In this document: piece after piece, positions 24,694 through 43,853 of the stretch
Position numbering within the stretch: the first letter of the stretch is position 1
How the letters are laid out: each line of letters begins with the position of its first letter
Source: Deltaproteobacteria bacterium
GTDB lineage: Bacteria; Desulfobacterota; Desulfobacteria; Desulfobacterales; Desulfobacteraceae
Assembly (NCBI GenBank): GCA_013151635.1
Contig: JAADHV010000123.1
Location: 1-53,423 of the forward strand
Direction of reading: 5' to 3'
DNA: 53,423 bases
The notes under the pieces: generated by a model
Databases searched by the model: none
What the model saw: only the letters and a program-made list of their open reading frames with translations
Told to the model about the DNA's origin: nothing
Program-made: the position numbers and the translations under genes

Positions 24694-25443
24694 TCAACCG
24701 ATATACCCGCCGTCCACACCAAGCACCTGGCCTGTGATATAACTTGCATCATCAGATGCCAGGAATACAAAGGCAGGAGCAACTTCTTCAGGTTCTGCAA
24801 ACCTGCCAAGCTGGATCCTGCTTTCGTAAATTTTTCTTAGCTTTTCATCGGACTGAAGCTTTCCTGTCATTTCTGTTTTGGTAATTCCGGGGCATATCAC
24901 GTTTACGTTAATACCGTACCTGCCAAGTTCACGAGAGGCAGATTTTGTAAATCCGATGATCCCGGCTTTTGCAGATGCATAGTTGATCTGGCCGATGGTG
25001 CCGAAAATACCGGCAGTTGAAATCACGTTAATAATTTTACCGTATTTTTTTTCTTTCATATGGCGGCCTGCGGCCTGGGTGGTGTTAAAGGCTGCTTTAA
25101 GATGAATATCAATAATGGCATCCCAGTCTTCCTCTTTCATTTTAAGAAGCATGGAAGGCTTGGAAACCCCGGCGTTATTTACAACAATATCAACGCTGCC
25201 CAGTTTTTTTACACACTCATCAACCATGTTCTGTGCGCTTTTGTAATCTGCAACATCAGCGGCAACAGCAACGCCTTTGCGACCAAGTTTTTCAATTTCT
25301 TCCACAGTCTCTTTTGCCGCAGCATCATTAGAATGGTAATTCACAAGGATATCAGCACCCTCTTTTGCAAACAGCAGGGCAATGGCTCTCCCGATTCCTC
25401 GGCTTCCGCCTGTAACTATGGCTTTTTTTCCTTCAAGTTTCAT
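24694..25443 (-). CDS. Short-chain dehydrogenase, candidate 3-hydroxyacyl-CoA dehydrogenase
   Basis: NAD(P)-dependent SDR of 249 aa, FabG-like. Visible motifs are TGGSRGIGRA (about residues 9-18), NNAG (about 89-92), catalytic Ser and YxxxK in ISTAGIFGTIGQINYASAKAG (about 140-160), and GVDGGYIG at the end. In this operon, between bamQ and bamA, a likely substrate is 3-hydroxypimeloyl-CoA, the product of BamA, which must be oxidised to 3-oxopimeloyl-CoA. That assignment is inferred from position. A fatty-acid reductase role is the alternative. Confidence 0.8.
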   Translation of the reverse strand: MKLEGKKAIVTGGSRGIGRAIALLFAKEGADILVNYHSNDAAAKETVEEIEKLGRKGVAVAADVADYKSAQNMVDECVKKLGSVDIVVNNAGVSKPSMLLKMKEEDWDAIIDIHLKAAFNTTQAAGRHMKEKKYGKIINVISTAGIFGTIGQINYASAKAGIIGFTKSASRELGRYGINVNVICPGITKTEMTGKLQSDEKLRKIYESRIQLGRFAEPEEVAPAFVFLASDDASYITGQVLGVDGGYIG

Positions 25444-25460
25444 ATTTACCTCATGCTTAA

Positions 25461-26564: not shown

Positions 26565-26670
26565 TTTTTTCTCCTTTTAATTATCAACAGGTTTTAACCC
26601 TTTTCAGCAAAACCGGAAAAACTTGGCTTATTGTTCCGTATGCCGGCCCGCTGTACTATTAAAATATTAT

Positions 26671-28779: not shown

Positions 28780-28792
28780 GTGCTACCTCGGC

Positions 28793-29752
28793 CTAACTTT
28801 TGATTTTTTTAATTTGTTCTCTTAAAATAGGAACTACCTCAAAAAGGTCTCCTACAATACCATAGTCAGCCACATTGAATATGGGGGCCTCAGGATCTTT
28901 ATTAACAGCCAGGATCACTTTTGAGCCGTTCATCCCGGCAAGGTGCTGGATGGCGCCTGAAATACCGATTGCAATATAAAGGGTTGGCGCCACAATCTTA
29001 CCGGTTTGCCCGACTTGCTTGTTATGTGCCATGAAACCGCCGTCGACCATGGCGCGGGAAGAACCGAAACCCGCTTTTAAATCACTGGCCAGTTCTTTTA
29101 CAAGATCAACACCGGCCTGGTCCCTGGCGCCACGCCCGACAGAGATAACAACATCGGCATCGGCAAGATCAATTTCACCGCTTGCATCTGATACAAGTTC
29201 CTTGATCACGGCCTTTAAATCAGGCTCCGGGGCAGCTAGTTTTACTATGTTTTGTGTTCCTTTGATGCCTTCTTTTGCCTCAAAAGCGCCTGCTCTGACA
29301 ACCGCCACCAATTGTTCGGTATTGACCAGAATTTTCTGCATCACTTTATTTGCAATGGCAGGCCTTGTGACTTTTATCTTGCCGCCTTCAATCTCCACAT
29401 CGGTAATTTCAGTGGCACAGGCAGCCGAAAGTTGAGCTGCCACCCTTGGTGCGGCAGCTTTGCCGCTTTCTGAAAACCCGAACCAGATAAGATTTGCATT
29501 AAACTGGTTTGCGGCATCAACAACACAGGAGGCATAAGGTCCGGCTGAAAATAATTCAAGCCCTGGATCGTCTGCAATATATTGTGTGTCGGAACCTGCG
29601 TTCACAAGATCGGGGATAAGAGATTCGATATCAGACCCAATGGCCAAAACTGCGGTTTCAGCGCCAATGGCACGGGCCTTTGATAAAAGTTCTGCAGTGC
29701 TGCTTTTGAGTACACCCAGTTTGATGTCTGCGATTACGAGTACTTTAGCCAT
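28793..29752 (-). CDS. etfA: Electron transfer flavoprotein subunit alpha
   Basis: ETF alpha subunit, 319 aa, FAD-binding. The N-terminal domain begins [18 protein letters not shown]. The C-terminal FAD domain shows [50 protein letters not shown] and the closing [23 protein letters not shown], all diagnostic. I placed the start at 29752, where the family begins and AAGGAAA lies upstream, instead of the longer frame to 29851, which would overlap etfB. It works with EtfB to carry electrons from acyl-CoA dehydrogenases to the membrane oxidoreductase encoded next. Confidence 0.95.
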
Positions 29753-29780
29753 AATATTATTTTCCTTGTATGAATTTGTA

Positions 29781-30563
29781 TTATAAAACCTTTGCTTCAT
29801 TGGCCAGGAGATCAACAACCTTGGCTGTGATTTCAGCAGCGTCGCCTTCAAATTTTTGCCCGGCCTTGCGAGTTTCTGATTTCATAAATTCAATAATTTC
29901 CGATTTTGGACTATCTCCCCTGATTTCATCAATTGAAGTTCCAAGAGCCTGCAAATCCATTACATTGATTTTCTTTTTCTTTGCCATCATAATACCGCGC
30001 ATGGCAGGCAGCCGGGGCTCATTAATGCTGTCACTCACCGTGACCACTGCGGGCAGTTCAAGTTCAACAATTTCAGTTCCCGCATCCCCGAGCCTGGATA
30101 CTTTAACGTGCTGATCGTCCGTCACCTCAAGGGCAATTACATTACTTACGCAGGGCACCTGCAAAGCCTCTGCCAGCATGATCCCGGTCTGGCCGCTGTC
30201 CGTATCCTGGGCCTGTTTGCCGGTGATTACAAGATCATAGTTTCCATTCTCGCAAACCTTTTGCAGCACTTTGGCAAAAACAGATGAATCAGCATCAGCC
30301 AGTGCAGGATCATTAATATGAATCGCGTTATCAATTCCCATGGCATAACATTTACGGATTATATCGGTGTTGTCTTCCACGCCGATGCTGACAAGGGTCG
30401 TCTCGGCATTATTATTTTCCTTTAACCGGATACAAGCTTCCACTGCATTTTCATCCCAGGCGTTTATAACATATTGCAGCCCGTCTTCGACAATGGCGCC
30501 GTCTTTTACGTGGATGTTTAATTCCACATCAACTACTTTTTTGACTGTTGCGAGAATTTTCAA
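29781..30563 (-). CDS. etfB: Electron transfer flavoprotein subunit beta
   Basis: ETF beta subunit, 260 aa. The MKILATVKKVVDVELNIHV start, INAWDENAVEACIRLKE, the AMP-binding region around DLVITGKQAQDTDSGQTGIMLAEAL (about residues 109-133) and the ETF-beta signature VSRLGDAGTEIVELELPAVVTVSDSINEPRLP (about 154-185) are present. The start codon is TTG, supported by GGAGG six bases upstream and by conserved N-terminal sequence. It forms the standard etfB-etfA-emo order. Confidence 0.95.
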   Translation of the reverse strand: MKILATVKKVVDVELNIHVKDGAIVEDGLQYVINAWDENAVEACIRLKENNNAETTLVSIGVEDNTDIIRKCYAMGIDNAIHINDPALADADSSVFAKVLQKVCENGNYDLVITGKQAQDTDSGQTGIMLAEALQVPCVSNVIALEVTDDQHVKVSRLGDAGTEIVELELPAVVTVSDSINEPRLPAMRGIMMAKKKKINVMDLQALGTSIDEIRGDSPKSEIIEFMKSETRKAGQKFEGDAAEITAKVVDLLANEAKVL

Positions 30564-30620
30564 TTTGTCCTCCTGATTATTTGTTGGGTCGCTTAAATTT
30601 GTGATATCCTTTTCAAAGCT

Positions 30621-31433
30621 TTATTGTTTTACGATCCTGTCTTCTCCGCAAACTACTATTAATTCAGATTGTGCAAAAGCGCAGGCCAGTGTCATGTTAA
30701 GGGCCTTGCCCATTTTAACGGCAAGGGCGGTGGGCCTTGATTTACTGATCATCACAGGAAGATGCGCCCTTGCAGCTTTTTGAACCAGTTCATAACTTAT
30801 CCTTGAAGACAGGACAAGAACGCGGGCAAAAGATAGTTTTTTGTTCATAAAAGCTTTGCCTATTGCCTTATCAAGCGCATTATGACGGCCTACATCCTCG
30901 GCAAAAGAAATCATTTCCAATTGATTGTCAAAGATTAATGCAGCGTGTGAGCCCCGGGTCCTGGGGTAATAGTTCTGGTTTTCGGAAAGTTGTTTGATGC
31001 AGTCAAAAATACGGTTAATTTCAATCTCAAACCCGTTTTTGGCCGGTATTAATATCTGATGGAGATCCTTGATCATTTCTTTCCCGCATATGCCGCAACT
31101 TGTCTGGCTGACATAGCTTCTCCTGTTGAGAATATTATCAACCTTTTTTCGCCTTTCAGGTTTGAGCCAGATATCTACGACATTCGGGTCCAGGTTTTTA
31201 TCATATCCTATGGTCAAAAAATCATCAGGGGAGTTTGCAATTCCCTCCCCAAGACATAGACCTGCCGCATGGGATACCTCTTCGCCAGGGGTTCTCATCA
31301 CCACTGAATAAGGCTTGTCCTCGACTCGAATCAAAAGAGGTTCCTCCCCGATCAGTTCAAGAGAACGGGTCTCACAGGTTCCTTTCTTACACCGAAGTGC
31401 CTGGTAAAATTCAGTATTCCTTGCTGCACTCAA
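30621..31433 (-). CDS. fdhD: Sulfurtransferase FdhD
   Basis: FdhD transfers sulfur to the bis-pyranopterin Mo/W cofactor of formate dehydrogenases. The 270-aa protein has the catalytic cysteine pair in TSCGICGKEM (about residues 112-121), the TRGSHAALIFD and ISFAEDVGRHNALDKAIG motifs (about 160-196), and ISRSRPTALAV-type sequence near the end. The start is TTG, with AAGGAG nine bases upstream, and overlaps the end of bamF by 23 bases. No formate dehydrogenase is in the window. Its location between bamF and etfB suggests that it serves the tungsten cofactor of BamB; this is inference. Confidence 0.9.
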   Translation of the reverse strand: MSAARNTEFYQALRCKKGTCETRSLELIGEEPLLIRVEDKPYSVVMRTPGEEVSHAAGLCLGEGIANSPDDFLTIGYDKNLDPNVVDIWLKPERRKKVDNILNRRSYVSQTSCGICGKEMIKDLHQILIPAKNGFEIEINRIFDCIKQLSENQNYYPRTRGSHAALIFDNQLEMISFAEDVGRHNALDKAIGKAFMNKKLSFARVLVLSSRISYELVQKAARAHLPVMISKSRPTALAVKMGKALNMTLACAFAQSELIVVCGEDRIVKQ

Positions 31434-32280
31434 TAGTTTTTGCTCCTTTTTCTTTGCTCTTTCTTACTATAATTCTTTCTTCTTCAGGAACAGGAGAAGG
31501 GACAGGCCTGCCCAAAATCTTTGTTACCGCAGCAAAGCGGGAAGGGCAGGCTTCAAAACAGGTCCCGCATCTTATGCATTTTTCCTGGTCAATTATATGA
31601 ACCAGGTCCTTTTTGCCGTCAATCGCATCCACAGGGCATTTCCTCTTGCAAATTCCACAGGCCTGGCATTTTTCCCGGTCAATATAATACGAGGGGATTT
31701 CATTAAATAAATTTTCTATCTCTTCTATGGTATAAAGCTCATTATATTCTTCTTTATTATCAAAATGCTTTCCAAGCTTTTCATTTTTTGAAAGCTTGAT
31801 ATAGGGGATAAGCTTGATAACTTTTTCAAGCTTTGACTTTAATTTTTTTCTTTGTATTCCTTCTTTTTTACCAAGCGGTCCCAGCTCCTTTACCTGACTT
31901 GTAAAACTATCAGTAATTTTAGCCATAAGGATTCCGTCAGCGCCGGACATAAATTCGATTCTCAGCCTTTCCGGGTCCAGGCCTATATATTCCATTATTT
32001 TTTTGCAAAGATGCGTCATGTTTAATGCATCGTAATTTCCATGAGTTGTATAGTTGCATTCACCAAGGCGGCAACCACCGACAAACACCCCGTCCTGCCC
32101 GTTCAAGAAGGCCCTGAGTATAAATTTCAGGTCGACTCTGCCGGAACACATGACTCGAATAAGCCTGATTTCACTTGCATATTGCAGTCTGGAAACTCCA
32201 GCCAGGTCAGCAGCACCGTATGCTCACCAATGGCATACAAAACCTAATATGCTTGGTTTAAATTCAAGACCTGTACTCAT
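31411..32280 (-). CDS. bamF: BamF: MvhD-like electron-transfer subunit with selenocysteine
   Basis: 289-aa protein if the in-frame TGA at 32224-32226 is read as selenocysteine (residue 19). The N-terminus then reads GFVCHW-Sec-AYGAADLAGVSR, matching the CxxC-type cluster motif of MvhD-family proteins with Sec in place of a cysteine. The MvhD region continues through IRVMCSGRVD (about 41-50) and GGCRLGECNY (about 69-78). Two [4Fe-4S] motifs follow near the C-terminus: CQACGICKRKCP and CIRCGTCFEACP. GGAG ten bases before the ATG at 32280 supports the start. A shorter frame from 32151 would lose the conserved N-terminus. BamF subunits with Sec are known in class II benzoyl-CoA reductase complexes. 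Confidence 0.88.
32189..32201 (-). promoter_or_regulatory. Possible SECIS hairpin in bamF
   Basis: CTGGA/TCCAG, five base pairs with a 3-base GTT loop, beginning 22 bases after the TGA codon of residue 19. The position is right for a bacterial SECIS, though the loop lacks a clear GGTC. Confidence 0.45.
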
Positions 32281-32359
32281 CCGTTCTGATCTCCTTTATT
32301 AATCATCTATGGCTTTATTCATTTGTATACTTCTACACATCTTCAAGGTTTGCGTCAAT

Positions 32360-35300
32360 TTATTGCATAATCTTATCTTTTTCAACAGCAGCATCAATCT
32401 GGCTCAAGAGTTCTTCGTCGGTAAAATGTTTCAGCACAATGGCACCTGTCGGACATTTAGCATTACAAAGGCCGTCCCCTTTACAAAGGACAGGATTAAC
32501 AAGGGCTTTTTGGTTTTGCTTTTTACCATGAAACTCTATGGCGCCATAGGTACAGGCCTGAATACATGCACCGCAGGCAATGCACTTTTTATCATCTACC
32601 TCGCAAACAGAACCCGAGGCTATGACAGTATCTTTTGAAAGAAGTGTTAAAACCCTGCCGGCAGCACCATAAGCCTGGTTGATCGTTTCAGGTATATGCT
32701 TGGGATAGTGGGCCATCCCACAAAGGTATACACCATCTGCTGCAAACTCAACAGGCCTTAATTTCACATGGGCTTCTTTGAAAAAACCATCCGGACTCAG
32801 GCTTACTTTGAACTGTCCTGCAATTTCCATGGTTGATGCAGATGGAATAACAGCAGCAGCCAGGGACAGGACATCAGCATCCAGCTCAAGCCTCTGGCCA
32901 AGGATGGAATCTGGAACCGTGACCCTTAGTACAGACTTGCCCCCTTCTTCAACGGCTTCAACCTGTGGCTTGTCATCAGGGTCATAACGGATGAACCTTA
33001 CTTCTTTATCAGAGGCTTCCCGATACGCATCTTCCCTGAACCCATAGGTCCTCATATCCCTGAAAAGGATATAGATATGCATTTGGGGGTTTATCTCTTT
33101 TAATTTCAAGGCGTTCTTCACGGCATGGCTGCAACAAACCCTGGAGCAATAATCTCTGTCTTTATTTCTGCACCCGACACATTGGATCATAACCAGGCTC
33201 TCGGCATTAACAATAGTTTCGTCCCTGTTTGCAATCTTTTCCCCCAGCTCGAGATGGGTAAACACATTATGGTTTTCCCCATAAAGATATTCAACAGGTT
33301 TATACTCATCCGCACCTGTTGCAAGTACGGATGCCCCATATTTTATCTTTTTAACCCGGCCTTCTGTTTTAACCAAGGTTTCAAAATTGCCCACATAACC
33401 TGAAACATCCTTTATGGTGGCTTCATGGGATACATGAATTAAGGGATTTTTATAGACCCTGCCTGTCAAATCATCCAGAAAGGATTGAACATCCAGTCCT
33501 TCCAGGGTGGTGTGAAGCCGCCTTGCCATTCCGCCCAGGTCTTTATTTTTTTCCAGTAAATGCACCTCATGCCCCTGTTCTGCTATGGAAAGCGCACATG
33601 TCATACCGGCTATGCCACCGCCAACTACCAGGGCCGTTTTGTTTACAGGCAGGTCAAACTCCTGTAAGGGCTCAAGATAGCAGGCCCTTGCCACCGACAT
33701 CCTGATGATATCCTGTGCTTTTAAAGTAGCCTCTTCCTTTTGCCTGGAATGGACCCAGGAGCAATGTTCCCTGATATTTGCCATATCACAATAATATTGA
33801 TTCAGTCCCGCCTCCCTTAGGGTGTCACGGAATAAGGGTTCAAGCGTTCTGGGGGAGCAGGCGGCTATTACCACTCGATTTAGTCCTTTTTCCTTTGCAA
33901 GGTCGGTTATTTCCTGGGCAGAATTGGTCGCACATGAAAAAAGCTGTTCCCGGGCATAGACAACATTGGGCAGGGTTGAAGCATACTCAACTGTAGAAGG
34001 GATATTGACTACGCTTGAAATATTAGCTCCGCAATGACAGACAAATACGCCTATTCTCGCCTCTTCTCCGGAAACATCTCTTTCTTGTGGATATATTCTT
34101 TCTTTGGCAAGCTTGTCCCGCCTGTAATCAAGAAGTTCACCACACTGGGCGCTGGCACCGCTCGCAGTAAAAACCGATTCCGGGATATCAGCGGGTCCCT
34201 GGAAAGCCCCGCTGACAAAAATCCCGGGCCTTGTGGTCTCAATGGGGTTGGAAGAATCCACCTTGCAGAATCCGTGTGAATTAAGCTTAATGCCAAATTT
34301 ATCTTTCAGTCCCTCATAATCAGCAGGCGGGTTCAATCCAATGGATAATACCACCATATCGAACTCTTCCTCTTTTACTCCATCGCTGGGAGTTGCATAT
34401 CGGACAAGCACATTTTCAGTCTTGCCAACCTCTTTTGCTATGGATGCATAGCTTCTTATAAACCGGACTTGTGGAAGTTTTTCCGCTCTCTTAAAGTATC
34501 GTTCAAAATCTTTGCCAAAGGAGCGGATATCATTATGGAATACCGTACATTCCGCCTTTTCATCATGATCTTTTGTCAAAATAACCTGTTTCTGGGTATA
34601 GGTGCAGCATACGCCGGAACAATAGCTGTTTTCTCCTTCTATAACCCGTCTTGACCCCACACACTGAATCCAGGCTATCTTTTTGGGGTGTTTTTTATCA
34701 GAAGGACGCAGCACCTCACCTTCGTATGGTCCTGTGGAAGATAAAAGCCTTTCATAGTCCATGCTGGTGATCACATTCTTAAACTTCTTGTAGCCATATT
34801 TATCATTTACCCCGGGATCAAACGGCTTAATGCCTGAAGCCAGGATAACAGCCCCTACATTTATATCAAGCTTACGCTTTGTCTGTGTGAAATCTATGGC
34901 ATCTGCCTGGCAGACGCCCCTGCAAATATCGCATTTTTTTTCTTTAAGGAAAAGACAGCTTTCATCAATATAAGACACAAGGGGAATTGCCTGGGAAAAA
35001 TATACATGCACAGCTTTATTCTTGGACATTTCCTGGTTAAATTGATCAGGATATTCCACAGGGCAGTATTCCACACAGGTTGTACAACCCGTGCATTTTT
35101 CCTCTATAATGTATCTGGGCTTGATTTTAAGACTAACCTTAAAGTCTCCTTGTTCCCCTTCTAACCCCTCAACTTCAGTAAATGTCAGAATCTCTATATT
35201 CGGATGCCGGCCGACCTCGACCAGTTTAGGTGAAAGAATTCACATGGAGCAGTCATTTGTGGGAAAAGTCTTGTCAAGCTGGGCCATATGCCCGCCAATG

Positions 35301-35470
35301 CTCGGTCCTTTCTCAACCAGGTAAACCTTAAACCCGGCAGTGGCAAGATCAAGAGAGGCCTGGATACCGCTTACCCCTCCACCAACAACCATTACGTCCC
35401 CGAAATTTTTATTTCCAAGACTTTGAATAAATTGTTGATTTTCTTCTTTTGACAATAATTTGTTTTCCAC
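32360..35470 (-). CDS. bamE: BamE: long HdrA-like flavoprotein with selenocysteine
   Basis: 1036-aa protein if the in-frame TGA at 35240-35242 is selenocysteine (residue 77); the same frame continues without further stops. The context is TNDCSM[18 protein letters not shown], the conserved HdrA segment where other members have Cys. FAD motif 1 is [16 protein letters not shown] (about residues 28-43). A CxxCxxCxxxC cluster follows at Cys126-136. A second HdrA-like unit contains [20 protein letters not shown]. The C-terminus has ferredoxin motifs [11 protein letters not shown] and [12 protein letters not shown]. HdrA proteins carry out flavin-based electron bifurcation; BamE is thought to do so for the endergonic reduction at BamB. 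Without recoding the gene appears as two frames, 35240-35470 and 32360-35074. Confidence 0.9.
35207..35224 (-). promoter_or_regulatory. SECIS-like hairpin in bamE
   Basis: CTGGTC pairs with GGCCGG (six pairs, three of them G-U or wobble-tolerant) around the 6-base loop GAGGTC. It starts 15 bases after the TGA. The loop contains GGTC, as in the E. coli fdhF element. Confidence 0.65.
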
Positions 35471-35537
35471 TTTCTATCTCCTATCATGTTTTTTGGGCCT
35501 GCAGCATCCGGGACGGCTGCTTAGTCTGATCTCTTCC

Positions 35538-36689
35538 CTAAAGCATATCATTGATTATTTCTGTAATGTCTTTAATTTCCATGGCATCTTCATACTCAAG
35601 GTTAAGCCGGCTTTCTTCAAAATTGGTGATGCAGTACGGGCAGGCGGTTACCAGGATTTCAGCCCCGGTCTGTCTTGCCTGTTTGAGCCTGAGATCGGAA
35701 AACCTTTCTTCTTTTGGGGTGTCCATCCAGATCCTGCCGCCGCCGCCGCCGCAGCAAAGACTGTTTTTGTCAGAATCTGACATCTCCACAAGTTCCAATC
35801 CTGAAATCTTCTTTAATACTTCCCTTGGTTCGTCATATATGCCATTGTGCCTTCCCAGGTAGCACGGGTCATGATAGGTCACTTTTTTTTCAAGATCACC
35901 TTTAAGTTCAAGCCTTCCCTCATTGATAAGATCAAGCAGGTATTGGGACATATGAACCACCTCAAAATTCACCATAAAATCAGGATATTCATTTTTAAAG
36001 GTATGAAAGCAATGCGGGGAAGAAACAATAATTTTTTTTATGCCATTATCGATAAACGTTTTGATATTCTCCCTGGCCAGGCGCTTAAATAATTCCTCGC
36101 TGCCTGTCTTCCGGATACTTTCCCCGCAGCAGTTCTCCTTTGAACCCAGTATTCCGAAATCAATGCCTGCGCTGTTAAGGATATTTGCCGTGGCAGCAGC
36201 AACCTTTTTCATCCTTGGATCATAACTTAAGTAACAACCGACAAAATATAAGGCTTCCATCCCTTCTTCATAAAGTTTCACAGGAAGTTCCTTTGCCCAG
36301 TCAGAGCGTTTTTTTCTCTCTCCCTGCAAAGGGTTGCCCTCGGAAATAAGGCTTGCCCTTGCAGTTCGGGCCGACCGGACAGAGGCTGGAAAAACTTCAT
36401 ACTCGGTCGCCACCCTGCGAAGTGCTACGCTTATGTCTATCTGTTTTACTCCCCTGGGGCAATGGGAAGGGCAATTCCCGCAGGTAGTGCAACGCCAGAT
36501 ATCTTCACCTTCAATCTCAGTTAAGCCAAAGGCAGCCTCCCGGATAATCCTGCGCATGCTAAAGGGCCTGACCTTATTCCATGGGCAGACAGTATCGCAC
36601 AGCCCGCATTGGAAGCATAACTTAAAGACTTCTCCACCTGCCTGTTTTATCTCATCTATGACTTCTATGAAGGGGGCTATGGTCTCCAC
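35538..36689 (-). CDS. bamD: BamD: HdrD-like iron-sulfur protein
   Basis: Soluble iron-sulfur subunit of 383 aa. Two [4Fe-4S] motifs, CFQCGLCDTVCP (about residues 25-36) and CTTCGNCPSHCP (about 68-79), precede two CCG domains: YFVGCYLSYDPR with ENCCGE, and HDPCYLGRHNGIYDEPREVL with CCGGGGG. This is the HdrB/HdrD architecture, which moves electrons to and from HdrA-type flavoproteins, here BamE. The order bamB-C-D-E-F matches known class II benzoyl-CoA reductase clusters. The gap to bamE is 67 bases and contains a small GC hairpin with no clear role. Confidence 0.88.
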   Translation of the reverse strand: METIAPFIEVIDEIKQAGGEVFKLCFQCGLCDTVCPWNKVRPFSMRRIIREAAFGLTEIEGEDIWRCTTCGNCPSHCPRGVKQIDISVALRRVATEYEVFPASVRSARTARASLISEGNPLQGERKKRSDWAKELPVKLYEEGMEALYFVGCYLSYDPRMKKVAAATANILNSAGIDFGILGSKENCCGESIRKTGSEELFKRLARENIKTFIDNGIKKIIVSSPHCFHTFKNEYPDFMVNFEVVHMSQYLLDLINEGRLELKGDLEKKVTYHDPCYLGRHNGIYDEPREVLKKISGLELVEMSDSDKNSLCCGGGGGRIWMDTPKEERFSDLRLKQARQTGAEILVTACPYCITNFEESRLNLEYEDAMEIKDITEIINDML

Positions 36690-36721
36690 TTTATTTATCT
36701 ATCCTTTTTTACCTTAAAATT

Positions 36722-37264
36722 CTAGTCCTTCTTTGACAACCGGGCAACACTATCCATTAATTTCTCAAGGCCGTATTTGCTGGCCAGTGATTCCAACCCG
36801 ATCTCCAATTCTTCCCGGTCTTCTTTTTCATCATCTTCTTCTATTTCCTCTTCCCTTTCCTTGTATGTCAGGGCATCAACCAGGCACCACTTTACACAAA
36901 GGGGTTCTTCTTCTCCTTCACACATATCGCATTTCAGGGGAAGGCCGGAGTCAGGTTCTTTGAACTCGTCCCTGGAAGGGCAGGAAGCCCTGCAAAAGGA
37001 ACACTCGTCATATTCTTTTCCGTCAATGGTGTACTTGTCCCTGCCTGCACATTCGGCCACAGCATATTCGCCCGCATATACAGGGACATAGACATCTCTT
37101 AACGGATCACGGACCACGCGGATACGGGATCTTGCAGGGTTATTGCTGCTGTATTTCGGTGCAGCGTGAAAACAAGAGCAGATAACCTCGCATGCCCGGC
37201 AGCCATTGCATTGGTTAACATCAATATTTATTGTTTTAATTATTTTCTTTTTTTTATCACCCAA
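36722..37264 (-). CDS. bamC: BamC: ferredoxin-like subunit of benzoyl-CoA reductase
   Basis: Iron-sulfur protein of 180 aa that forms the BC core with the tungsten subunit. Cysteine clusters are CNGCRACEVICSC (about residues 18-30), ECAGRDKY...ECSFCRASCP (about 70-92) and CDMCEGEEEPLCVKWC (about 110-125), enough for three [4Fe-4S] clusters. The C-terminal third is a highly acidic segment (EEEIEEDDEKEDREELE). It lies 21 bases after bamB. Confidence 0.9.
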   Translation of the reverse strand: MGDKKKKIIKTINIDVNQCNGCRACEVICSCFHAAPKYSSNNPARSRIRVVRDPLRDVYVPVYAGEYAVAECAGRDKYTIDGKEYDECSFCRASCPSRDEFKEPDSGLPLKCDMCEGEEEPLCVKWCLVDALTYKEREEEIEEDDEKEDREELEIGLESLASKYGLEKLMDSVARLSKKD

Positions 37265-37285: not shown

Positions 37286-39307
37286 CTAATTTGTCTCTTT
37301 TCCGGCCAAAGCCTTTTTGGAAGAGGCATCTTTGGAAGGCATATCTTTGCCGTCCGTCAAGATACCCCTCTTTAAAAAATCTTCACTCACATAATCCAAA
37401 TCCAGTTCATGCAGGGCTTCTTTGGTCGGGATACCGTCATTATTCCACCCCTTGAGTTTGTAATACCCATCCAGGAGATCGTTTTCAAGTTCGGGAAATC
37501 TTTTTTTCCAATGATTTTCAGGCGGCTTCTCATCTTTTCTTCTCATGCCCCTTCTTATATTGATCGCCCTGACAAGAGTCCTGTATCTTTTGGCTGCTTT
37601 TGTCAATTTTTCTTCATCCATATCAATCCCTGCCCCTGATGAGATAAATTTCGGGTAATTGTGGATATGATACGGGGGTTTTAATGGGAATGATGATAAC
37701 CCGGCGCACTGGCCAAGAGCGTCATCAATGTAGTGCATCCTCTCCTGCCAGTCAACAATCTCACAAGTCATTTCAACCGTCGGGTAATATGGAATCGAAT
37801 TTTCTCCGCGCAGTTCCCAGTCCAGGAAATATTGCTTGAATTTTTCATCAGGGACCTGTATCCAATCCTTTACAAATTCTTCCCTCTGCTCTCTTGTCGG
37901 AAAAGGTGCCTGGGGAAACTGCCCTTCAATCTGGGTAATATTCATCTTTTCGCCGGTGGAATACATCAAAAAATAGATGGGATTCAGCATGGAAAGTTTT
38001 AGAGGCAGCTGCTCATGTTTCTTAATATTATTATGGGCGTAATTTTCTGCTCCGTTACCAATCTCTTTGGCCGCCCAATACGTGCCATTGGCCAGGACGT
38101 CTCCTATCCCTTCCCGCCTTACAATTTTATCAAGCAAATAGTAGAACCTGCCTTCGTTGTCCTCTGGCATTCCGGGGAAATCTTTTTTGGTTAAAATACC
38201 GTTTTCCAGAAGCTCAAGTGCAAATGCCATAACCTGCGGGGCTGAAAACCCGTCCACCCCATACTCTGTTGCACGCTGGGCTATTTTTAAACCAAAATCC
38301 AGGTCTGAAAATGCTCCCATTGTATAGGTAAGTTTGGTAAAACATTTCATCATGTATGTAGGAAACCCGGGCATGGAAATCGTTGCCCCGCATTTCATGG
38401 GACAGTTAAAGCAACTGATCAGCCTTGTCCTGGCATTTTCCATTGTCTTTTTCCACTGTTTTTTGACATCTTCGGTCCAGAAACCTTTTCGCCGCGTGCG
38501 TGAATTTCCCCACATGAAATTCTCGGTATGCCACTTTTCATCATGAACTTTCATCTCCTGGGGCGAACCAAGTCCTGACAGGATGGCCATTACACCCGGA
38601 ATTGGGTTTTCTTCCCGGAATTTTATATATTCCAGAACTTCGTTGCAAAGCCCCATGTATTCCTCTGGCCGGGCAACATTGATGTCCTTTGTTCCGCGAA
38701 CAACAATGGCTTTAACCCCTTTGTCGCCCATGACAGCCCCTATCCCGCCCCGGCTGGCACTGGATCTGCCCTGCTCAATGGAGGCATAATAAACCCTGTT
38801 TTCACCAGCCATGCCAATGGCGGCCACCTGTGCTTTTGGCTGATTCAGTTCCTTTTTGAGGATTTCTGCTGTTTCAATAGAACCTTTACCTTTTAAATGA
38901 GAGGCATCGCGTATTTCTACATTGTCATTATTTATCCACAAATAAACCAGGTCAGGGGACTTGCCGCGAAGGATCACTTTATCGAAACCCGCATATTTTA
39001 ATTCAGGTGCCCAGAACCCCCCCATCATTGAAAATGCCATCAACCTGGTCTGGGGAGAAATAGTGGAAACAATAGTACGGTTGCAGCCGGTAGCAGGTGT
39101 GCCGCATAAAAGCCCGGCGCCGAATATCAGCAGATTGTCAGGAGAAAAGGGTTCAACTTCAGGGGGAACCCTGTCCCACAGTATTTTGGCGTTAGTGCCC
39201 AGGCCTCCCAGGTAAAGCCCGGTTTCTCTTGGGTCAGTCGCTACCTTTTCGATGTTTCCCCGGGACAGATCAATTTCTAAATTAAACCCTGTCTCTGCGT
39301 ACCTCAT
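37286..39307 (-). CDS. bamB: BamB: tungsten-containing active-site subunit of class II benzoyl-CoA reductase
   Basis: Aldehyde:ferredoxin oxidoreductase-family enzyme, 673 aa, that reduces benzoyl-CoA to cyclohexa-1,5-diene-1-carbonyl-CoA at a tungsten-bis-pyranopterin site. The [4Fe-4S] ligands are Cys299, Cys302 and Cys306 (CFNCPMKC) plus Cys534 in DDALGQC. Cys322 (MMKCFTKL) falls at the number I remember for the tungsten ligand of the Geobacter BamB structure, and His260 at the number of its active-site histidine. The AOR segments GFDKVILRGKSP, RGGIGAVMGDKGVKAIVVRG and INIRRG are present. It is the first gene of the operon, with a strong promoter about 100 bases upstream. Confidence 0.95.
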   Translation of the reverse strand: MRYAETGFNLEIDLSRGNIEKVATDPRETGLYLGGLGTNAKILWDRVPPEVEPFSPDNLLIFGAGLLCGTPATGCNRTIVSTISPQTRLMAFSMMGGFWAPELKYAGFDKVILRGKSPDLVYLWINNDNVEIRDASHLKGKGSIETAEILKKELNQPKAQVAAIGMAGENRVYYASIEQGRSSASRGGIGAVMGDKGVKAIVVRGTKDINVARPEEYMGLCNEVLEYIKFREENPIPGVMAILSGLGSPQEMKVHDEKWHTENFMWGNSRTRRKGFWTEDVKKQWKKTMENARTRLISCFNCPMKCGATISMPGFPTYMMKCFTKLTYTMGAFSDLDFGLKIAQRATEYGVDGFSAPQVMAFALELLENGILTKKDFPGMPEDNEGRFYYLLDKIVRREGIGDVLANGTYWAAKEIGNGAENYAHNNIKKHEQLPLKLSMLNPIYFLMYSTGEKMNITQIEGQFPQAPFPTREQREEFVKDWIQVPDEKFKQYFLDWELRGENSIPYYPTVEMTCEIVDWQERMHYIDDALGQCAGLSSFPLKPPYHIHNYPKFISSGAGIDMDEEKLTKAAKRYRTLVRAINIRRGMRRKDEKPPENHWKKRFPELENDLLDGYYKLKGWNNDGIPTKEALHELDLDYVSEDFLKRGILTDGKDMPSKDASSKKALAGKETN

Positions 39308-39393
39308 TTTTTTCCCCTTCTATATATCCATGCCATAAGTTCAGGGCCAGCAAGCCTTTAATACCGGATGAAAAAATTATCTTTATCACTCGG

Positions 39394-39428
39394 TACAATG
39401 TGACTATATATAAGCTATATCATAACTA
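39394..39428 (-). repeat. TATAGCT regulatory element, copy a (bam promoter)
   Basis: A 35-base stretch on the minus strand with TAGTTA, TATAGCT, TATAGT and ACATTGTA in that order. It agrees with the element at the dctP promoter (40792-40828) at about 29 of 35 aligned positions, the latter having two extra bases. It covers the spacer and -10 box of the bam promoter. Confidence 0.65.
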
Positions 39429-39436
39429 CGTGTCAA
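39408..39436 (-). promoter_or_regulatory. Sigma-70 promoter of the bam operon
   Basis: Minus-strand TTGACA (39436-39431), a 17-base spacer and TTATAT (39413-39408). The -10 box ends about 100 bases before the bamB start. The core looks strong, so control by a repressor bound to the overlapping TATAGCT element is plausible. Confidence 0.7.
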
Positions 39437-39579
39437 GAAAAAATCTAAGCTTTTTCAGAACCTGTTTTATTTTTTTTAAAACCGCTATGGCTCTCATTTC
39501 ACTTGTTAAACAGGACGCTCATGATCATGCGCAAGCCAGGCGGCAGGCAGGCAGGGGGAGGTGAGAGGGTTAATAAAAA

Positions 39580-40032
39580 TCAAATATCCAGCTCAAGATT
39601 TATCATATCACCTTTCTGGAAACCCAAGTTGTTAAAAAATTTCAAGAGAACCCAGTCCCGCCGCGTTACAAACGTGGTTATTGTATCCACACCCAGTTTC
39701 TTCAAGTTATCAGTCATTTCAGCGAACAGGCTCCTTGCAATGCCTTTCCTTTGGTAGTCAGGGTCTACACCAATGGTATCAACCCATCCAATGTTTTCAG
39801 GAACACCATACTCCCACCTGCTTGCACCACCTATAATAAAACCTGCGACCTTGCCGTCCAATTGGGCGACAAGACAGGAAAACTGCGAGCGTTTTTCCAG
39901 TGACTCAAGCTTCATTTCCCAATATTGGGGCCTTGGTTTTCCCAGAACCTTGATGTCTATTTCAACTATCCGGTCCAGATCCGAGGGAGCCATTGTTCGA
40001 ATAACAGGTGAGCCAGAAGATCCATTACTCAT
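39580..40032 (-). CDS. GNAT-family N-acetyltransferase
   Basis: Acetyl-CoA-dependent acetyltransferase, 150 aa, single GNAT domain: VAGFIIGG (about residues 61-68), then the acetyl-CoA loop GVDPDYQRKGIARSLFAEM (about 88-106) with the Q/RxxGxG/A signature, and a C-terminal NLGFQKGD. The acceptor is unknown. It lies between bamB and a small AbrB-like gene on the same strand. It might modify proteins of the pathway, because acyl-CoA-rich metabolism often involves protein acylation, but nothing in the sequence shows this. GGAGGG lies just before the ATG. Confidence 0.85.
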   Translation of the reverse strand: MSNGSSGSPVIRTMAPSDLDRIVEIDIKVLGKPRPQYWEMKLESLEKRSQFSCLVAQLDGKVAGFIIGGASRWEYGVPENIGWVDTIGVDPDYQRKGIARSLFAEMTDNLKKLGVDTITTFVTRRDWVLLKFFNNLGFQKGDMINLELDI

Positions 40033-40142
40033 ATTACCCTCCTCATTTATTTATAGAATCAATTTTTAATAAAATTATTCACCAGGAAACATGCAAAGTT
40101 TATCATATAAAATCTGTCATGTCCAAAAACCGTGGATTTATT

Positions 40143-40322
40143 TTAACATTTCACCACTTTAACTTTTGTCCCTATCCATTCAGGCGGCAGGTAAACCCTT
40201 CCACTGTTCCCACTGGAATTAACAGTTTTTTCAATCATTTCTTCACCATAGATTTCAAATTTCACCTTGCGGCGGGAATAATCATCTTCATATCCATCAT
40301 TTTTTTCATTGTCAACCGGCAT
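40143..40322 (-). CDS. Small DUF2080/AbrB-like protein
   Basis: A 59-aa protein with RRKVKFEIYGEEMIEKTV followed by SGNSGRVYLPPEWIGTKVKVV (about residues 37-57). The latter looks like the swapped-hairpin core of AbrB/SpoVT DNA-binding proteins. The whole resembles small 'transposon-encoded' DUF2080 proteins known mainly from archaea. I chose the ATG at 40322 because AGGAG lies ten bases upstream; the TTG at 40331 is too close to it. It has its own promoter carrying a TATAGCT element, so it is a candidate local regulator of bam and the TRAP transporter. No transposase is nearby. Confidence 0.65.
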   Translation of the reverse strand: MPVDNEKNDGYEDDYSRRKVKFEIYGEEMIEKTVNSSGNSGRVYLPPEWIGTKVKVVKC

Positions 40323-40383
40323 GACGCTCAAACTCCTGTTGCAAACTTTAAGAATAAGACATAGCTCAAGCTATTATTTAAGT

Positions 40384-40413
40384 ACTAAATAGTTATATTG
40401 CAGCTATATGTCA
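40384..40413 (-). repeat. TATAGCT regulatory element, copy c
   Basis: Thirty bases beginning GACATATAGCT on the minus strand. They match copy d (40628-40657) at 24 of 30 positions and overlap the promoter of the DUF2080-like gene. Confidence 0.6.
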
Positions 40414-40414
40414 A
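40386..40414 (-). promoter_or_regulatory. Promoter of the DUF2080-like gene
   Basis: Minus-strand TTGACA (40414-40409), a 17-base spacer and TATTTA (40391-40386), about 64 bases before the ATG at 40322. The GNAT gene may be read from it as well. Confidence 0.65.
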
Positions 40415-40530
40415 GAATTTATTTAATTTATTTAGTATAGGTCATCATCTAATAAATAAGGGCAGGGTGTCATATATTTGGAAAACAAGAAAAAAATTAA
40501 GATAGTTAACTTGAACTGATATTTATATAT

Positions 40531-40546
40531 TAGTTGATATATCAAC
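40531..40546. repeat. Palindromic operator candidate, copy 1
   Basis: TAGTTGATATATCAAC, containing the perfect 14-bp palindrome GTTGATATATCAAC (16 bp perfect here: AGTTGATATATCAACT at 40532-40547). It recurs at 40709-40724. The form fits a dimeric helix-turn-helix regulator (TetR or MarR type). The 2-base centre excludes an FNR box, which needs four. Confidence 0.7.
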
Positions 40547-40627
40547 TTTATTGTAATTTTACCATGTCAGGGTAAAAAATCTGGTACCCGTTGAGGCAAT
40601 ACTGCCTTGACGCTTTTGCCATGTGAT

Positions 40628-40657
40628 TAATAAATAACCATATTATAGCTATATGTC
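40628..40657 (-). repeat. TATAGCT regulatory element, copy d
   Basis: Thirty bases beginning GACATATAGCT on the minus strand, 24 of 30 identical to copy c. Here AGGACA stands where copy c has TTGACA, so it is not a promoter copy. Confidence 0.55.
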
Positions 40658-40708
40658 CTATTAGGTTTGAACTTAGCCAGACACTGCCTCTTTTTTGCCT
40701 TTAAAGAA

Positions 40709-40724
40709 TAGTTGATATATCAAC
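40709..40724. repeat. Palindromic operator candidate, copy 2
   Basis: TAGTTGATATATCAAC, identical over 16 bases to copy 1. The centre-to-centre distance of 178 bp is close to 17 turns of B-DNA. This copy ends 42 bases before the dctP -35 box. Confidence 0.7.
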
Positions 40725-40765
40725 GGCATAGTTTCTTTTTTTATTTTCCAAATCCAATTTTTTCC

Positions 40766-40795
40766 TTGACATGGTTTCTTTCTTTTAAATATAGT
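40766..40795 (+). promoter_or_regulatory. Promoter of the TRAP transporter operon
   Basis: TTGACA (40766-40771), an 18-base spacer and TATAGT (40790-40795). The leader before dctP is about 155 bases long and contains the shared TATAGCT element and a strong Shine-Dalgarno-like sequence. Confidence 0.7.
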
Positions 40796-40828
40796 TACTT
40801 ATTATAGCTGATTTATAGTTACATTGTA
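40792..40828 (+). repeat. TATAGCT regulatory element, copy b (dctP promoter)
   Basis: Contains TAGTTA, TATAGCT, TATAGT and ACATTGTA in the same order as the bam promoter copy. It starts in the -10 box and runs into the transcribed region. Its end overlaps the inverted repeat GTTACATTGTAAC (40818-40830). Confidence 0.65.
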
Positions 40829-40850
40829 ACACTATTACTTAATTTTCTGT

Positions 40851-40956: not shown

Positions 40957-41952
40957 ATGAAAAGAATCACCTTTCTGACTTTTTTGTTTTTTTGTTTCAG
41001 TGCATTTTTTGTTTTCAACGCAAGTGCAAAAACCCAACTCACCTACGCCAACTTTTTTCCCCCGACACATATTCAAAGTAAACTTGCAGAAAGCTGGTGC
41101 AGAGAAGTAGAAAAAAGAACCAACGGCGAAATCAGTATTAAATATTTTCCTGCAGGCACCTTGTTAAAAGCCCCTCAAACTTATGACGGCGTTGTTCAGG
41201 GGATTGCAGATATCGGTATGACTGTTCTTGCTTATTCAAGGGGACGTTTCCCGGTGGCATCCGCCATTGACCTTCCGCTGGGCTACAAAAGCGGCGTACA
41301 GGCAACAAGGGTCGCCAATGCTGTTTTAAACAAATTCCACCCCAAGGAATTTAATGATTCAAAAATTATGTTTCTCCATGCTCATGGCCCAGGACTGATC
41401 CATACCCGCAACAAACCTGTTTACACCATGGCAGACCTGAAAGGCCTTAAACTCAGAGGAACCGGAACAAGTGGCCTCGTCGCCGCCGCCCTTGGTGCCT
41501 CTCCTGTTGGTAAATCCATGAGAGAATGCTACCAGATGCTTCAAAAAGGCGTTGTTGACGGATCACTCCATCCAATGGAATCAAATAAAGGATGGAAACT
41601 GGGCGAAGTTGTTCATTACCTGACTTTGAATTATTCAACAGCCTATACCACCACATTTGCTGTTTTCATGAACAAAGACAAATGGAACAAATTGACCCCG
41701 GCCCAGCAGAAAACCATAAAAGATATCAATGCAGAATGGTCTGTAAAACATGGCGAAGCCTGGGATGCTGCTGACAAAGCAGGTCTTGCGTTCTTTAAAT
41801 CCAAAGGCGGAAAAGTGATCACCCTTTCTGACGCTGAATCCAAAAAATGGAAAGCTGCTGTTGCTCCTGTAATCGATGGATACATCAAAAAAGCAGATGC
41901 AAAAGGCATTGACGGAAAAGCTGTTGTGGATTTCATCAAAGCCAACATGTAA
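40957..41952 (+). CDS. dctP: TRAP transporter substrate-binding protein DctP
   Basis: Periplasmic solute receptor of a TRAP transporter, 331 aa, with a signal peptide (residues 1-24, ending ASA). Family features: TYANFFPPTHIQSKLAESWCREVEKRTNGEI near the N-terminus; the DLKGLKLRGTG segment (about 166-176), whose arginine normally binds a carboxylate; and the YQMLQKGVVDGSLHPMESNKGWKLGEV region. AGGAGGT seven bases before the ATG supports the start. The receptor should bind an organic acid. The shared promoter elements with the bam operon point to an aromatic acid such as benzoate. Confidence 0.92.
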   Translation: MKRITFLTFLFFCFSAFFVFNASAKTQLTYANFFPPTHIQSKLAESWCREVEKRTNGEISIKYFPAGTLLKAPQTYDGVVQGIADIGMTVLAYSRGRFPVASAIDLPLGYKSGVQATRVANAVLNKFHPKEFNDSKIMFLHAHGPGLIHTRNKPVYTMADLKGLKLRGTGTSGLVAAALGASPVGKSMRECYQMLQKGVVDGSLHPMESNKGWKLGEVVHYLTLNYSTAYTTTFAVFMNKDKWNKLTPAQQKTIKDINAEWSVKHGEAWDAADKAGLAFFKSKGGKVITLSDAESKKWKAAVAPVIDGYIKKADAKGIDGKAVVDFIKANM

Positions 41953-41968
41953 TAATAAGCATTAACTC

Positions 41969-42016
41969 ATCAATAAATGACCGGCCTTTTTGTATTAAAG
42001 CCGGTCATTTATTGAT
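41969..42016 (+). other. Perfect 17-bp hairpin between dctP and dctQ
   Basis: ATCAATAAATGACCGGC (41969-41985) pairs perfectly with 42000-42016 around a 14-base loop. No T-run follows the stem, so it is more likely an mRNA processing or stabilising element than a terminator. Confidence 0.75.
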
Positions 42017-42045
42017 ATGGATTTAGTTTATAATCAGGATATTTT

Positions 42046-42540
42046 ATGAGCATTTTTTCCAAAGGACTGGACAAATTTTCCGGTCTGTTAAAAGTAATTG
42101 GCGGTGTTGCCCTGACCGGCATGATGCTGCTGACTGTTGTTGATGTTATCGGCCGTTTTTTCAAGCATCCTATCTTCGGCTCTGTTGAACTTGTCGGTTT
42201 CCTGGCCACAATTGTGGTTGCCGCGGCCTTACCTTATACCTATAAGGTTGATGGTCACGTTGGCGTGGAAATCCTGGTACGCCTGCTGTCTGAAAAAACA
42301 CAATTGATCATTGATATTTTTACCCGCACATTAAGCTTTGCCCTTTTCAGTATTGTGACCTGGCAGATGTTTCTTTATGCCAGGGACATACACAAGACAG
42401 GAGAAGTCTCAATGAACCTTGAGTTTCCCATTTATTACATTATATATCTGCTGTCTTTCGGGTTATTTATCTTTTCTATTACCATACTTGAGTCTATTTT
42501 TAAAAACATTAAGCAATTGAAAGAATTAAAAACAAAATGA
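42046..42540 (+). CDS. dctQ: TRAP transporter small permease DctQ
   Basis: Small membrane subunit of 164 aa with four hydrophobic spans at about residues 17-37, 50-70, 90-115 and 130-150. The segment VDVIGRFFKHPIFGSVELVGFLATIVVAAALPYTYKVDGHVGVEIL (about 27-73) is the usual DctQ signature. AGGA seven bases before the ATG supports the start. Its stop overlaps the dctM start by four bases. Confidence 0.92.
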   Translation: MSIFSKGLDKFSGLLKVIGGVALTGMMLLTVVDVIGRFFKHPIFGSVELVGFLATIVVAAALPYTYKVDGHVGVEILVRLLSEKTQLIIDIFTRTLSFALFSIVTWQMFLYARDIHKTGEVSMNLEFPIYYIIYLLSFGLFIFSITILESIFKNIKQLKELKTK

Positions 42541-43853
42541 GTCCAACTATTATTGGCATAATCGGTGTTGTAATCATGATCCTTTTGTTTCTGACAAGAA
42601 TGCCTGTTGCATTTGTCATGGCCATAGTAGGCTTTGTTGGATTCAGTATAATGATCACCTCTAATGCAGGCCTGGTTCTTTTATCCAGAAATGTGTATGA
42701 AGTTTTCGGATCATACGATTTGACAACAATCCCCTTATTTATCCTCATGGGGCAACTCGGGTTTAACTCGGGAATCAGCAAGCGTCTTTATGATGTCGGT
42801 TACAAATTCCTGGGAAGCACCAGGGGTGGACTTGCCATGGCAACAGTCTCAGCATGTACGGCCTTTGGTGCTGTATGCGGTTCCAGCCCTGCCACAGCAG
42901 CTACCATGGCTACAGTTGGTCTTCCAGAGATGAAACGCTACAATTATGCTGATGAACTTGCTACGGGCTGTGTTGCATCCGGCGGCGGAATCGGCATGAT
43001 CATGCCCCCAAGTGTAGTCCTGATTATATATGGTATCCTTACTGAGCAATCCATAGGAGCATTATTTGTTGCCGGGATTTTTCCTGCCCTGCTTGTCACC
43101 ATTCTTTTCATAATTTCCATTTATATTAAGTGCCGCATTAACCCTGAACAGGGACCCTGCGGTGAAAAATTCACCTGGGCGGAAAAATTCAAGGCTTTAC
43201 TGGGCTTAGGTGAAACCCTGGCAGTATTTACCCTTGTAATCGGTGGTATCTTCATCGGTCTTTTTACGCCGACAGAGGCGGCTGCAATCGGTGCTTTCGG
43301 TATTCTTATCATTGCGGTCGTCAGAAAGCAGATCACCTGGGCCGGATTTTACAAATCCTTAAAGGAGACATTAAGAACATCGTGCATGGTGATGATGCTC
43401 ATTGCCGGTGCTGTTATTTTTGGAAAATTTTTAGCCGTCACAAGAATACCCTTTGAAATAGCAGGGTGGGTCAGCAGACTTCAAATGGCACCCTACCTGG
43501 TCATGGCGGTTATCATCATGATATACTTCTTTGGCGGGTGCTTTATGGACGCCCTGGCTTTTGTCACCTTGACCGTTCCTATCTTTTTCCCGGTTGTCAT
43601 GGGACTTGGCTATGACCCCATCTGGTTTGGTATTATCATCGTTATGGTAACTGAAATGGGGGTTATTACACCGCCGGTCGGCATTAACGTGTATGTCGTC
43701 TATGGGGTTGCAAAAAATGTATTGGAACAAGAAATCCCTCTGGAAAAAATATTCAAGGGAATTTTTCCTTTCCTCCTTGCTGTTATTGTGGGTGTGATCA
43801 TCCTGATCATCTTCCCGGAAATCATACTCTATCTGCCCAACCTCATGTATTGA
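42537..43853 (+). CDS. dctM: TRAP transporter large permease DctM
   Basis: Large membrane subunit of 438 aa with about twelve hydrophobic spans; it catalyses sodium-coupled uptake. The typical DctM stretches are present: TIPLFILMGQLGFNSGISKRLYDVGYKFLG (about residues 62-91), AFGAVCGSSPATAATMATVGLPEMKRYNY, GGGIGMIMPPSVVLIIYGILTEQSIG, FTPTEAAAIGAFG, and VTEMGVITPPVGINVYVV (about 372-389). It is coupled to dctQ by an ATGA overlap and followed by a strong terminator. Confidence 0.95.
   Translation: MSPTIIGIIGVVIMILLFLTRMPVAFVMAIVGFVGFSIMITSNAGLVLLSRNVYEVFGSYDLTTIPLFILMGQLGFNSGISKRLYDVGYKFLGSTRGGLAMATVSACTAFGAVCGSSPATAATMATVGLPEMKRYNYADELATGCVASGGGIGMIMPPSVVLIIYGILTEQSIGALFVAGIFPALLVTILFIISIYIKCRINPEQGPCGEKFTWAEKFKALLGLGETLAVFTLVIGGIFIGLFTPTEAAAIGAFGILIIAVVRKQITWAGFYKSLKETLRTSCMVMMLIAGAVIFGKFLAVTRIPFEIAGWVSRLQMAPYLVMAVIIMIYFFGGCFMDALAFVTLTVPIFFPVVMGLGYDPIWFGIIIVMVTEMGVITPPVGINVYVVYGVAKNVLEQEIPLEKIFKGIFPFLLAVIVGVIILIIFPEIILYLPNLMY

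Follow-up and report, generated by a model that had tools for sequence, protein, structure and literature searches.

A shared operator before the bam and TRAP transporter operons of Desulfobacteraceae, with a DUF2080 protein as its candidate repressor

Do the genes for reduction of the aromatic ring and the genes of the transporter beside them answer to one regulator and, if so, to which? The question is raised by a 53,423-nucleotide stretch of DNA from a Deltaproteobacteria bacterium of the Desulfobacteraceae (the window; JAADHV010000123.1, contig C85 of the 4.21-Mb, 136-contig assembly GCA_013151635.1), in which a class II benzoyl-CoA reductase (bam) operon on the minus strand and the tripartite ATP-independent periplasmic (TRAP) transporter genes dctP, dctQ and dctM on the plus strand point away from each other and carry similar promoter blocks. 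Our analysis suggests that both operons belong to one regulon, which is probably repressed through a shared operator by SP, a 59-residue DUF2080-family protein encoded between them.

The likeness of the two promoters is real, and is both rarer and stronger than had been stated in an earlier sequence-only reading, which counted about 29 matching bases in 35: a gapped alignment gives 31 identities over 35 bam bases with two one-base gaps, and an ungapped 28-bp core, TATAGCTNATNTATAGTNACATTGTANC (24 fixed positions), fits the bam and dctP sites exactly. At up to three mismatches this core has exactly two sites in the 4.2-Mb genome, those at bam and dctP, and its reversed pattern has none; the motif is thus not scattered genome-wide, an outcome on which the earlier proposal had been made to depend. 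A 17-bp operator pattern, WATAGNYAYATTRYANC, searched through the whole window at up to one mismatch, matches four times, at bam, at dctP and at two elements between them, C and D. The 24 of 30 identities previously claimed for C and D are reproduced, but with C at 40383-40412 against D at 40628-40657 (spacing 245); the position first printed for C (40384-40413) is displaced by one base, which leaves 3 identities in 30. The promoter and operator features are as follows.

39432-39437, minus strand: bam promoter -35 hexamer TTGACA, also aligned across the bamB-class sites.
39392-39430, minus strand: bam operator ladder, nodes GTAGTT, ATAGCT, ATAGTC and TGTACC in 11-bp steps.
39414-39426 (O1) and 39392-39408 (O2), minus strand, within the bam ladder: palindrome cores with starts 22 bp apart.
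40388-40414, minus strand: element C, promoter and operator of the SP gene (TTGACA 40409-40414; operator 40388-40404).
40633-40649, unstranded: element D, operator-like with one mismatch, midway between two palindromes.
40766-40795, plus strand: dctP core promoter TTGACA-18 bp-TATAGT, 11 of 12 to the sigma-70 consensus, with the same layout in the dctP-class alignment.
40803-40834, plus strand: dctP operator TATAGCTGATTTATAGTTACATTGTAACACTA, centre GTTACATTGTAAC (40818-40830), about +1 to +30.

Across the bamB sites, TTGACA is followed by GTAGTT, (A/G)TAGCT, ATAGTY or ATAATC, and a TGTACC-like end at 0, 11, 22 and 33 bp, a spacing by which the four blocks first noticed become one ladder. All 18 bamB sites with sufficient upstream sequence have a TAG 11 bp ahead of the core node (one site, in L087, lies close to a contig end and was left out), and the third node has TAG in 12 and TAA in 6 of these. 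The step from the TAGTTA block to the next node is 11 bp at bam and 13 bp at dctP, where the ladder continues in 11 bp and TAG is found at 13 bp in 27 of 32 sites. SP genes have the consensus GTAGCT, GTATCT, GTATCT, ATAGCT, in 11-bp steps as judged by eye, directly after TTGACA, and element C is well conserved among relatives. Adjoining nodes of the (G/A)TAGYT type pair into palindromes close to GYTAYANTRTARC.

The element had been described as sitting on the -10 region in both operons. This is accurate for bam, where it fills the stretch after TTGACA including any -10, but at dctP only the first block is the -10 (TATAGT at 40790-40795 in the best promoter) and the conserved core, 40803-40830, lies beyond it. 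We read the element as an operator whose nodes would recur with each helical turn (11 bp) and share a face of the DNA; at bam and SP it begins directly behind the -35, and at dctP it covers, from the start site predicted by the -10, about +1 to +28. Such placement over the promoter would suit a repressor: a protein bound there would block RNA polymerase, which makes repression the most likely mode and one in which we have reasonable confidence.

Whether the pairing of bam and TRAP sites is peculiar to this genome was addressed in 145 genomes, the window's own included, comprising 86 of its family and 59 from other families of the order, one each (G and L numbers denote genomes and loci). At up to three mismatches the 28-bp core has 54 sites in 38 genomes, and the reversed core none in the 145. 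All 38 genomes belong to the window's own family (5 of 73 genera), and every site is oriented on the strand of its downstream gene, which is bamB in 19 cases, dctP in 32, fdhD in 2 and TRAP dctQ in 1. In 14 genomes there is both a bamB and a dctP site. At four or five mismatches there are five further sites before bamB, three before dctP and one unassigned. The fdhD sites extend the pattern to fdhD-etf genes: in G001 the bam contig carries these genes some 15 kb past the bamB site, with an operator of their own 41 bp before the fdhD match, and G017, in which bamB was not found, has the same site and fdhD arrangement on a short contig (operator copies at about 4634 in L067 and about 3819 in L081). 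By this comparison the operator is shared, its placement is conserved, and the genes behind it can be assigned to one regulon; common control of bam and TRAP genes is supported, and co-regulation of ring reduction with the TRAP importer appears nearly certain on comparative grounds.

The same counts bear on the proposal that the bam/dctP likeness is a chance resemblance of AT-rich promoters, or a recent promoter duplication with no regulatory meaning. Both regions do look AT-rich, and promoter-like sites are about twice as frequent as in shuffled sequence (11 versus 5.8); a reversed control with no hits in 145 genomes and 54 sites that all precede related catabolic or TRAP genes leave this explanation with a negligible probability, as does the retention of the palindrome at bamB in other families. 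There, a GYTAYANTRTARC palindrome with at most one mismatch lies within 400 bp upstream of bamB in 8 of the 11 regions examined, out of 19 such genomes with BamB, and was not found within these limits in L055, L056 and L123.

Misses in the site distribution count against the regulon explanation. Among the 41 own-family genomes with BamB, only 18 have a bamB site at up to three mismatches; in some of the remainder the contig ends there, and others have diverged sites. The complete genome G007 has no 28-bp-core site, and shows a 17-bp core with one mismatch on the dctP side. In seven stretches of the Desulfotignum group (L089, L090, L091, L094, L097, L099 and L114), the 17-bp pattern matches with one or two mismatches on the bamB side, at 146-214 bp before the dctP element. 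Kinship among the genomes also inflates all p-values given here. With these points included, a shared bam-TRAP regulon is still, in our judgement, very strongly indicated by the comparative data.

Which protein would bind the operator is less firmly answered. The only genes found between the bam and dctP operons are those of SP and a GNAT acetyltransferase, neither of which has a classical regulator domain.

40146-40322 (stop codon 40143-40145), minus strand: SP, 59-residue DUF2080-family protein, by profile scores, and candidate DNA-binding regulator.
39580-40032, minus strand: GNAT acetyltransferase, downstream of SP and upstream of bamB.

SP, overlooked in the earlier reading, is small enough to fall below open reading frame (ORF) cut-offs, here 100 residues. 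It belongs to the DUF2080 family, scoring 23.6 bits against PF09853 (cut-off 21.5) and 64.7 bits against NF033496 (cut-off 22). Relatives of SP occur in 76 of the 145 genomes and follow BamB, scored as present at E up to 1e-100: outside the family SP is found in 18 of 19 BamB-positive and 6 of 40 BamB-negative genomes (Fisher p 3e-9), the BamB-positive genome without it, G096, having a BamB only 66% identical; within the family the figures are 39 of 41 and 13 of 45. Own-family SP proteins are of two types, a bam-type, encoded upstream of an ADH gene or between TRAP and bam, and a paralogue type.

The operator is found at SP genes as well as at the catabolic promoters. Upstream of bam-type SP genes the 17-bp pattern matches in 35 of 35 loci at up to two mismatches (shuffles 0.069) and in 28 of 35 at up to one (0.003); for own-family paralogues the counts are 21 of 32 (0.022) and 9 of 32 (0.003), and for SP genes of other families 3 of 24 at up to one mismatch (0.000), 4 of 24 at two (0.004) and 12 of 24 at three (0.125). 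At 42 further named SP loci (group C), mostly of distant Desulfobacterota and partly overlapping the genomes already used, so not a fully independent set, the palindrome lies within 300 bp upstream at up to one mismatch in 20 and exactly in 6; of 1806 control windows taken from these loci, 19 have it at up to one mismatch. The overlap includes L318, apparently the own-family genome G030, and L341 and L268, whose contigs are of equal length. Two bam-type loci with too little upstream sequence were dropped, L103 (under 100 bp) from the 17-bp test and L311 (under 120 bp) from the palindrome test. The degenerate patterns were written after own-family and some other-family sequences had been seen; they, with shuffled and natural-sequence control windows, were used because a position-weight matrix from 30 own-genus sites proved too narrow (bam-type SP operators scored z of about -0.6 to 2.4 against shuffles) and was rejected. 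By comparison, then, SP is associated both with the operator and with bam.

Autoregulation typically shows itself in an operator that precedes both the regulator's gene and its target genes and that persists from family to family. We name SP as the candidate regulator because its own promoter and the targets share the operator across families, and the presence of the operator in element C would make SP negatively autoregulated. On this comparative footing we regard SP as the probable binder.

Several results count against that assignment. A regulon member can share an operator without being its regulator. The AbrB-like reading of SP rests on a MazE profile score of 13.5 bits, under the cut-off of 24.7; the predicted fold is poor (mean pLDDT 55, pTM 0.24), and a profile search of the PDB with SP gave no credible relative. 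No operator within two mismatches was found at 11 of 32 own-family paralogues, the window genome's own included, or at 20 of 24 other-family SP genes, and the palindrome pattern scores at only 7 of 32 bam-type SP promoters and at 1 of 5 own-family paralogues, because their operators have diverged. SP itself was not found in three site-bearing genomes, G021, G023 and G037, and three others, G001 (97% complete), G017 and G064, encode SP of the paralogue type alone. In G023 the gene may have been lost in assembly, since a paralogue-type operator survives there 192 bases from a contig start.

The genomes with sites and no SP also speak for a different account, in which the regulon is real and the operator is bound by a regulator from another part of the genome (a BadM-like Rrf2 protein, a MarR or TetR protein, or a two-component system), SP being a co-regulated member with another task. 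With no classical regulator domain between the operons the factor could be anywhere, and BadM of Rhodopseudomonas palustris is described as a repressor of class I reductase genes (PMC6191541). A MarR gene, P0001, does lie between dctP and bamB in G085 (L117, 8260-8760) and beside bamB in G087; it has matches in 16 of 145 genomes and none in the window's own at E 1e-12, and on that ground was rejected as the general regulator. SP, on the other side, is the gene that has the operator at its own promoter across families, at some paralogues too. With Rrf2 and TetR genes outside the survey, we consider an outside regulator unlikely, though it is the foremost alternative to SP. In G085 and G087 the operator is diverged or not detected, a possible case of regulator replacement. 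Some relatives have a Cache-domain histidine kinase and an NtrC-like response regulator encoded downstream of the TRAP operon (L070, 1-3684); this flanking pair was set aside, as the dctP promoter is sigma-70-like.

In the presence of an aromatic substrate, repression by SP would be lifted and the genes for the TRAP importer, for benzoyl-CoA reductase and for ring beta-oxidation would be expressed together, so that import and degradation of aromatic compounds are likely induced as one. Candidate signals are an aromatic-CoA or the product of a GNAT acetyltransferase. The order SP-GNAT-bamB of the window recurs in L315, L333, L335 and L353, close relatives of the window GNAT (77-79%) precede bamB in L068, L082, L111 and L123, the 700 bp behind SP contain a GNAT gene in 38 of the 42 group C loci, and paralogue-type SP precedes one in 5 of 5 named own-family loci. 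Identity to the window GNAT is 28-33% for two GNATs encoded behind SP at other loci. An adjoining GNAT gene is, however, missing from all 33 bam-type SP loci, indicating that SP and GNAT genes are as a rule separated in Desulfobacula and its close kin; the case for a BadL-like role is weaker for it, and that GNAT makes or tunes the signal is accordingly doubtful. L333 (10045) and L335 (11799) have, besides the SP-paired GNAT, another that is 42% identical to the window's and lies downstream of a bamF-like gene.

The frequent SP-GNAT pairing raises the possibility of a toxin-antitoxin module, with SP as an antitoxin that binds its own promoter, GNAT as the toxin, and the bam and dctP operators borrowed or secondary. 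A DUF2080 protein is reported among antitoxins validated against nuclease-type toxins (PMC10440598). Against this, SP tracks the presence of bamB and is not scattered, bam-type SP lacks the GNAT partner, and the clearest operator sites are catabolic promoters; we judge such a module very improbable. A paralogous SP-GNAT pair in the window's genome (L216; contig C45, 89500-94000) is preceded by a sigma-54-type regulator gene and followed by branched-chain-type ABC transporter genes, as named by reading the translations. In relatives, several SP-paralogue promoters carry TRTAGCCANATTATATC-type sites; the promoter of this genome's paralogue has none within two mismatches.

Shared control with bam had been taken to make this TRAP system a candidate aromatic-acid importer. 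The best of five DctP models has a mean pLDDT of 85 (range 63 to 85), and its first 27 Foldseek matches in the PDB reach E up to 1.4e-26, the next being at 5.3e-22. These 27 are 4n6d, 4nap, 4p56, 5im2, TarP receptors and marine receptors titled 'specific for aromatic acid ligands', with 5i5p, 5i7i, 5iga and 5izz in their number; most titles name coumarate, caffeate, ferulate, cinnamate or 4-hydroxyphenylacetate, while that of the top match, 4n6d, names no ligand. By fold and sequence (Foldseek, phmmer) DctP is nearest to TarP-like aromatic-acid TRAP receptors. TarPQM and related aromatic-acid transporters thus share the receptor fold and the closest sequences with DctP, which differs from TarPQM-type receptors in that identity in the 27 alignments is 28-37% and its ligand is predicted. 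The candidacy of this TRAP system as an aromatic-acid importer gains from the fold, which supports an aromatic or arylalkyl carboxylate as cargo, benzoate itself being only a candidate. From the model, we think an aromatic carboxylate quite likely.

The TRAP promoter may receive a second input, at a palindrome with two exact copies in the genome.

40711-40724, unstranded: palindrome GTTGATATATCAAC, 92 bp upstream of the dctP element, a second conserved site.
40533-40546, unstranded: second copy of GTTGATATATCAAC, at about -270.

Two further copies with one mismatch sit inside unrelated ORFs. Among relatives, GTTGA-N4-TCAAC at -95 to -89 from the dctP element is exact in 31 of 35 dctP loci and within one mismatch in 33; L100 has it at -80 and L117 lacks it. 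Its conservation is consistent with a site for a second putative regulator. Element D gives its best match at -169 to -172, with one to four mismatches, in all eight dctP loci that have two upstream palindromes; five of them do not exceed shuffled sequence at 5% when judged by match level alone. With its position kept and its sequence degenerate in relatives, D may be a weak auxiliary site.

The remaining genes of the two operons are as follows.

37286-39307, minus strand: bamB, AFOR-type class II benzoyl-CoA reductase subunit, heading a long same-strand cluster.
22343-37264, minus strand: rest of the bam cluster, comprising bamC, bamD, bamE, a FlpD/BamF-like gene, fdhD, etfBA, a CCG/Fe-S protein gene, ADH, SDR and ECH genes, a 118-residue ORF and a nitroreductase-family gene.
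40957-43853, plus strand: dctP, dctQ and dctM of the TRAP transporter, whose receptor model is nearest a group with aromatic-acid receptors.

An AFOR-type BamB with ordered Fe-S and Hdr-type partners identifies a class II benzoyl-CoA reductase cluster, the letters of the bam names being assigned by analogy. bamE has an in-frame TGA (35240-35242, minus strand; context NDCSM-TGA-ILSPKL, read by eye) where HdrA-type proteins presumably carry cysteine, and the TGA is likely a selenocysteine codon. An Rfam scan gave a single sub-threshold match, taken as chance.

The nearest regulatory precedent, in the excerpts of the literature on which we draw, is BadM-BadL, which controls badDEFGAB in R. palustris, acetamidobenzoates made by BadL releasing BadM; BadL-BadM clusters are also described in Geobacter metallireducens and Magnetospirillum magneticum (PMC6191541). 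As there, the repressor proposed here for benzoyl-CoA reductase genes is linked to a GNAT acetyltransferase. In contrast to BadM, an Rrf2 protein, the candidate here is a DUF2080 protein, the reductase is of class II (Bam) type, and bam-type SP mostly stands without GNAT; the window GNAT is likened to BadL by kind of enzyme and setting. An Rrf2/GNAT pairing of the BadL-BadM type was not found at this locus, where the neighbour of GNAT is the DUF2080 protein; Rrf2 genes elsewhere in the genome were not surveyed. An AbrB-type regulator acts in anaerobic aromatic oxidation in Geotalea daltonii, a parallel to the AbrB-like reading of SP, although both target and site differ, AbrB binding in that case to a TGGNA-type site in the promoter of the rpoN operon (PMC11497800); AbrB also appears in the reference lists of two other papers (PMC13101534; PMC13416013). 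TRAP uptake of aromatic acids within the same sulfate-reducer family is described for DctM4Q4P4 of Desulfococcus multivorans, similar to DctM9Q9P9 of D. toluolica; DctM4Q4P4 is linked to phenylacetate genes, and the excerpt describes no operator (PMC5109826). A GNAT and a 'transposase-associated protein' beside BamQ, probably relatives of SP-GNAT as their names suggest, are noted as perhaps having no part in benzene degradation, and the excerpt proposes no regulatory role for them (PMC13101534). Proteomics points to conserved control of Bam proteins (PMC11887813). The excerpts name no operator or DNA-binding regulator for bam genes in sulfate reducers, and no description of the present operator turned up in them or among the titles searched, which does not establish its absence from print.

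The outcome is a sequence-defined operator, a candidate regulator, and a specific importer with a screenable ligand. More broadly, and with slightly less than even confidence, the DUF2080 'transposase-associated' micro-proteins may be a new class of metabolic regulator that acts on an 11-bp-stepped operator and, tuned by a CoA-bound aromatic or a GNAT-made signal, represses class II benzoyl-CoA reductase, ring beta-oxidation and aromatic-acid TRAP genes across the Desulfobacterota. A role is put forward for the DUF2080 proteins of these bacteria, and how major seabed carbon oxidisers control ring reduction can now be tested directly.

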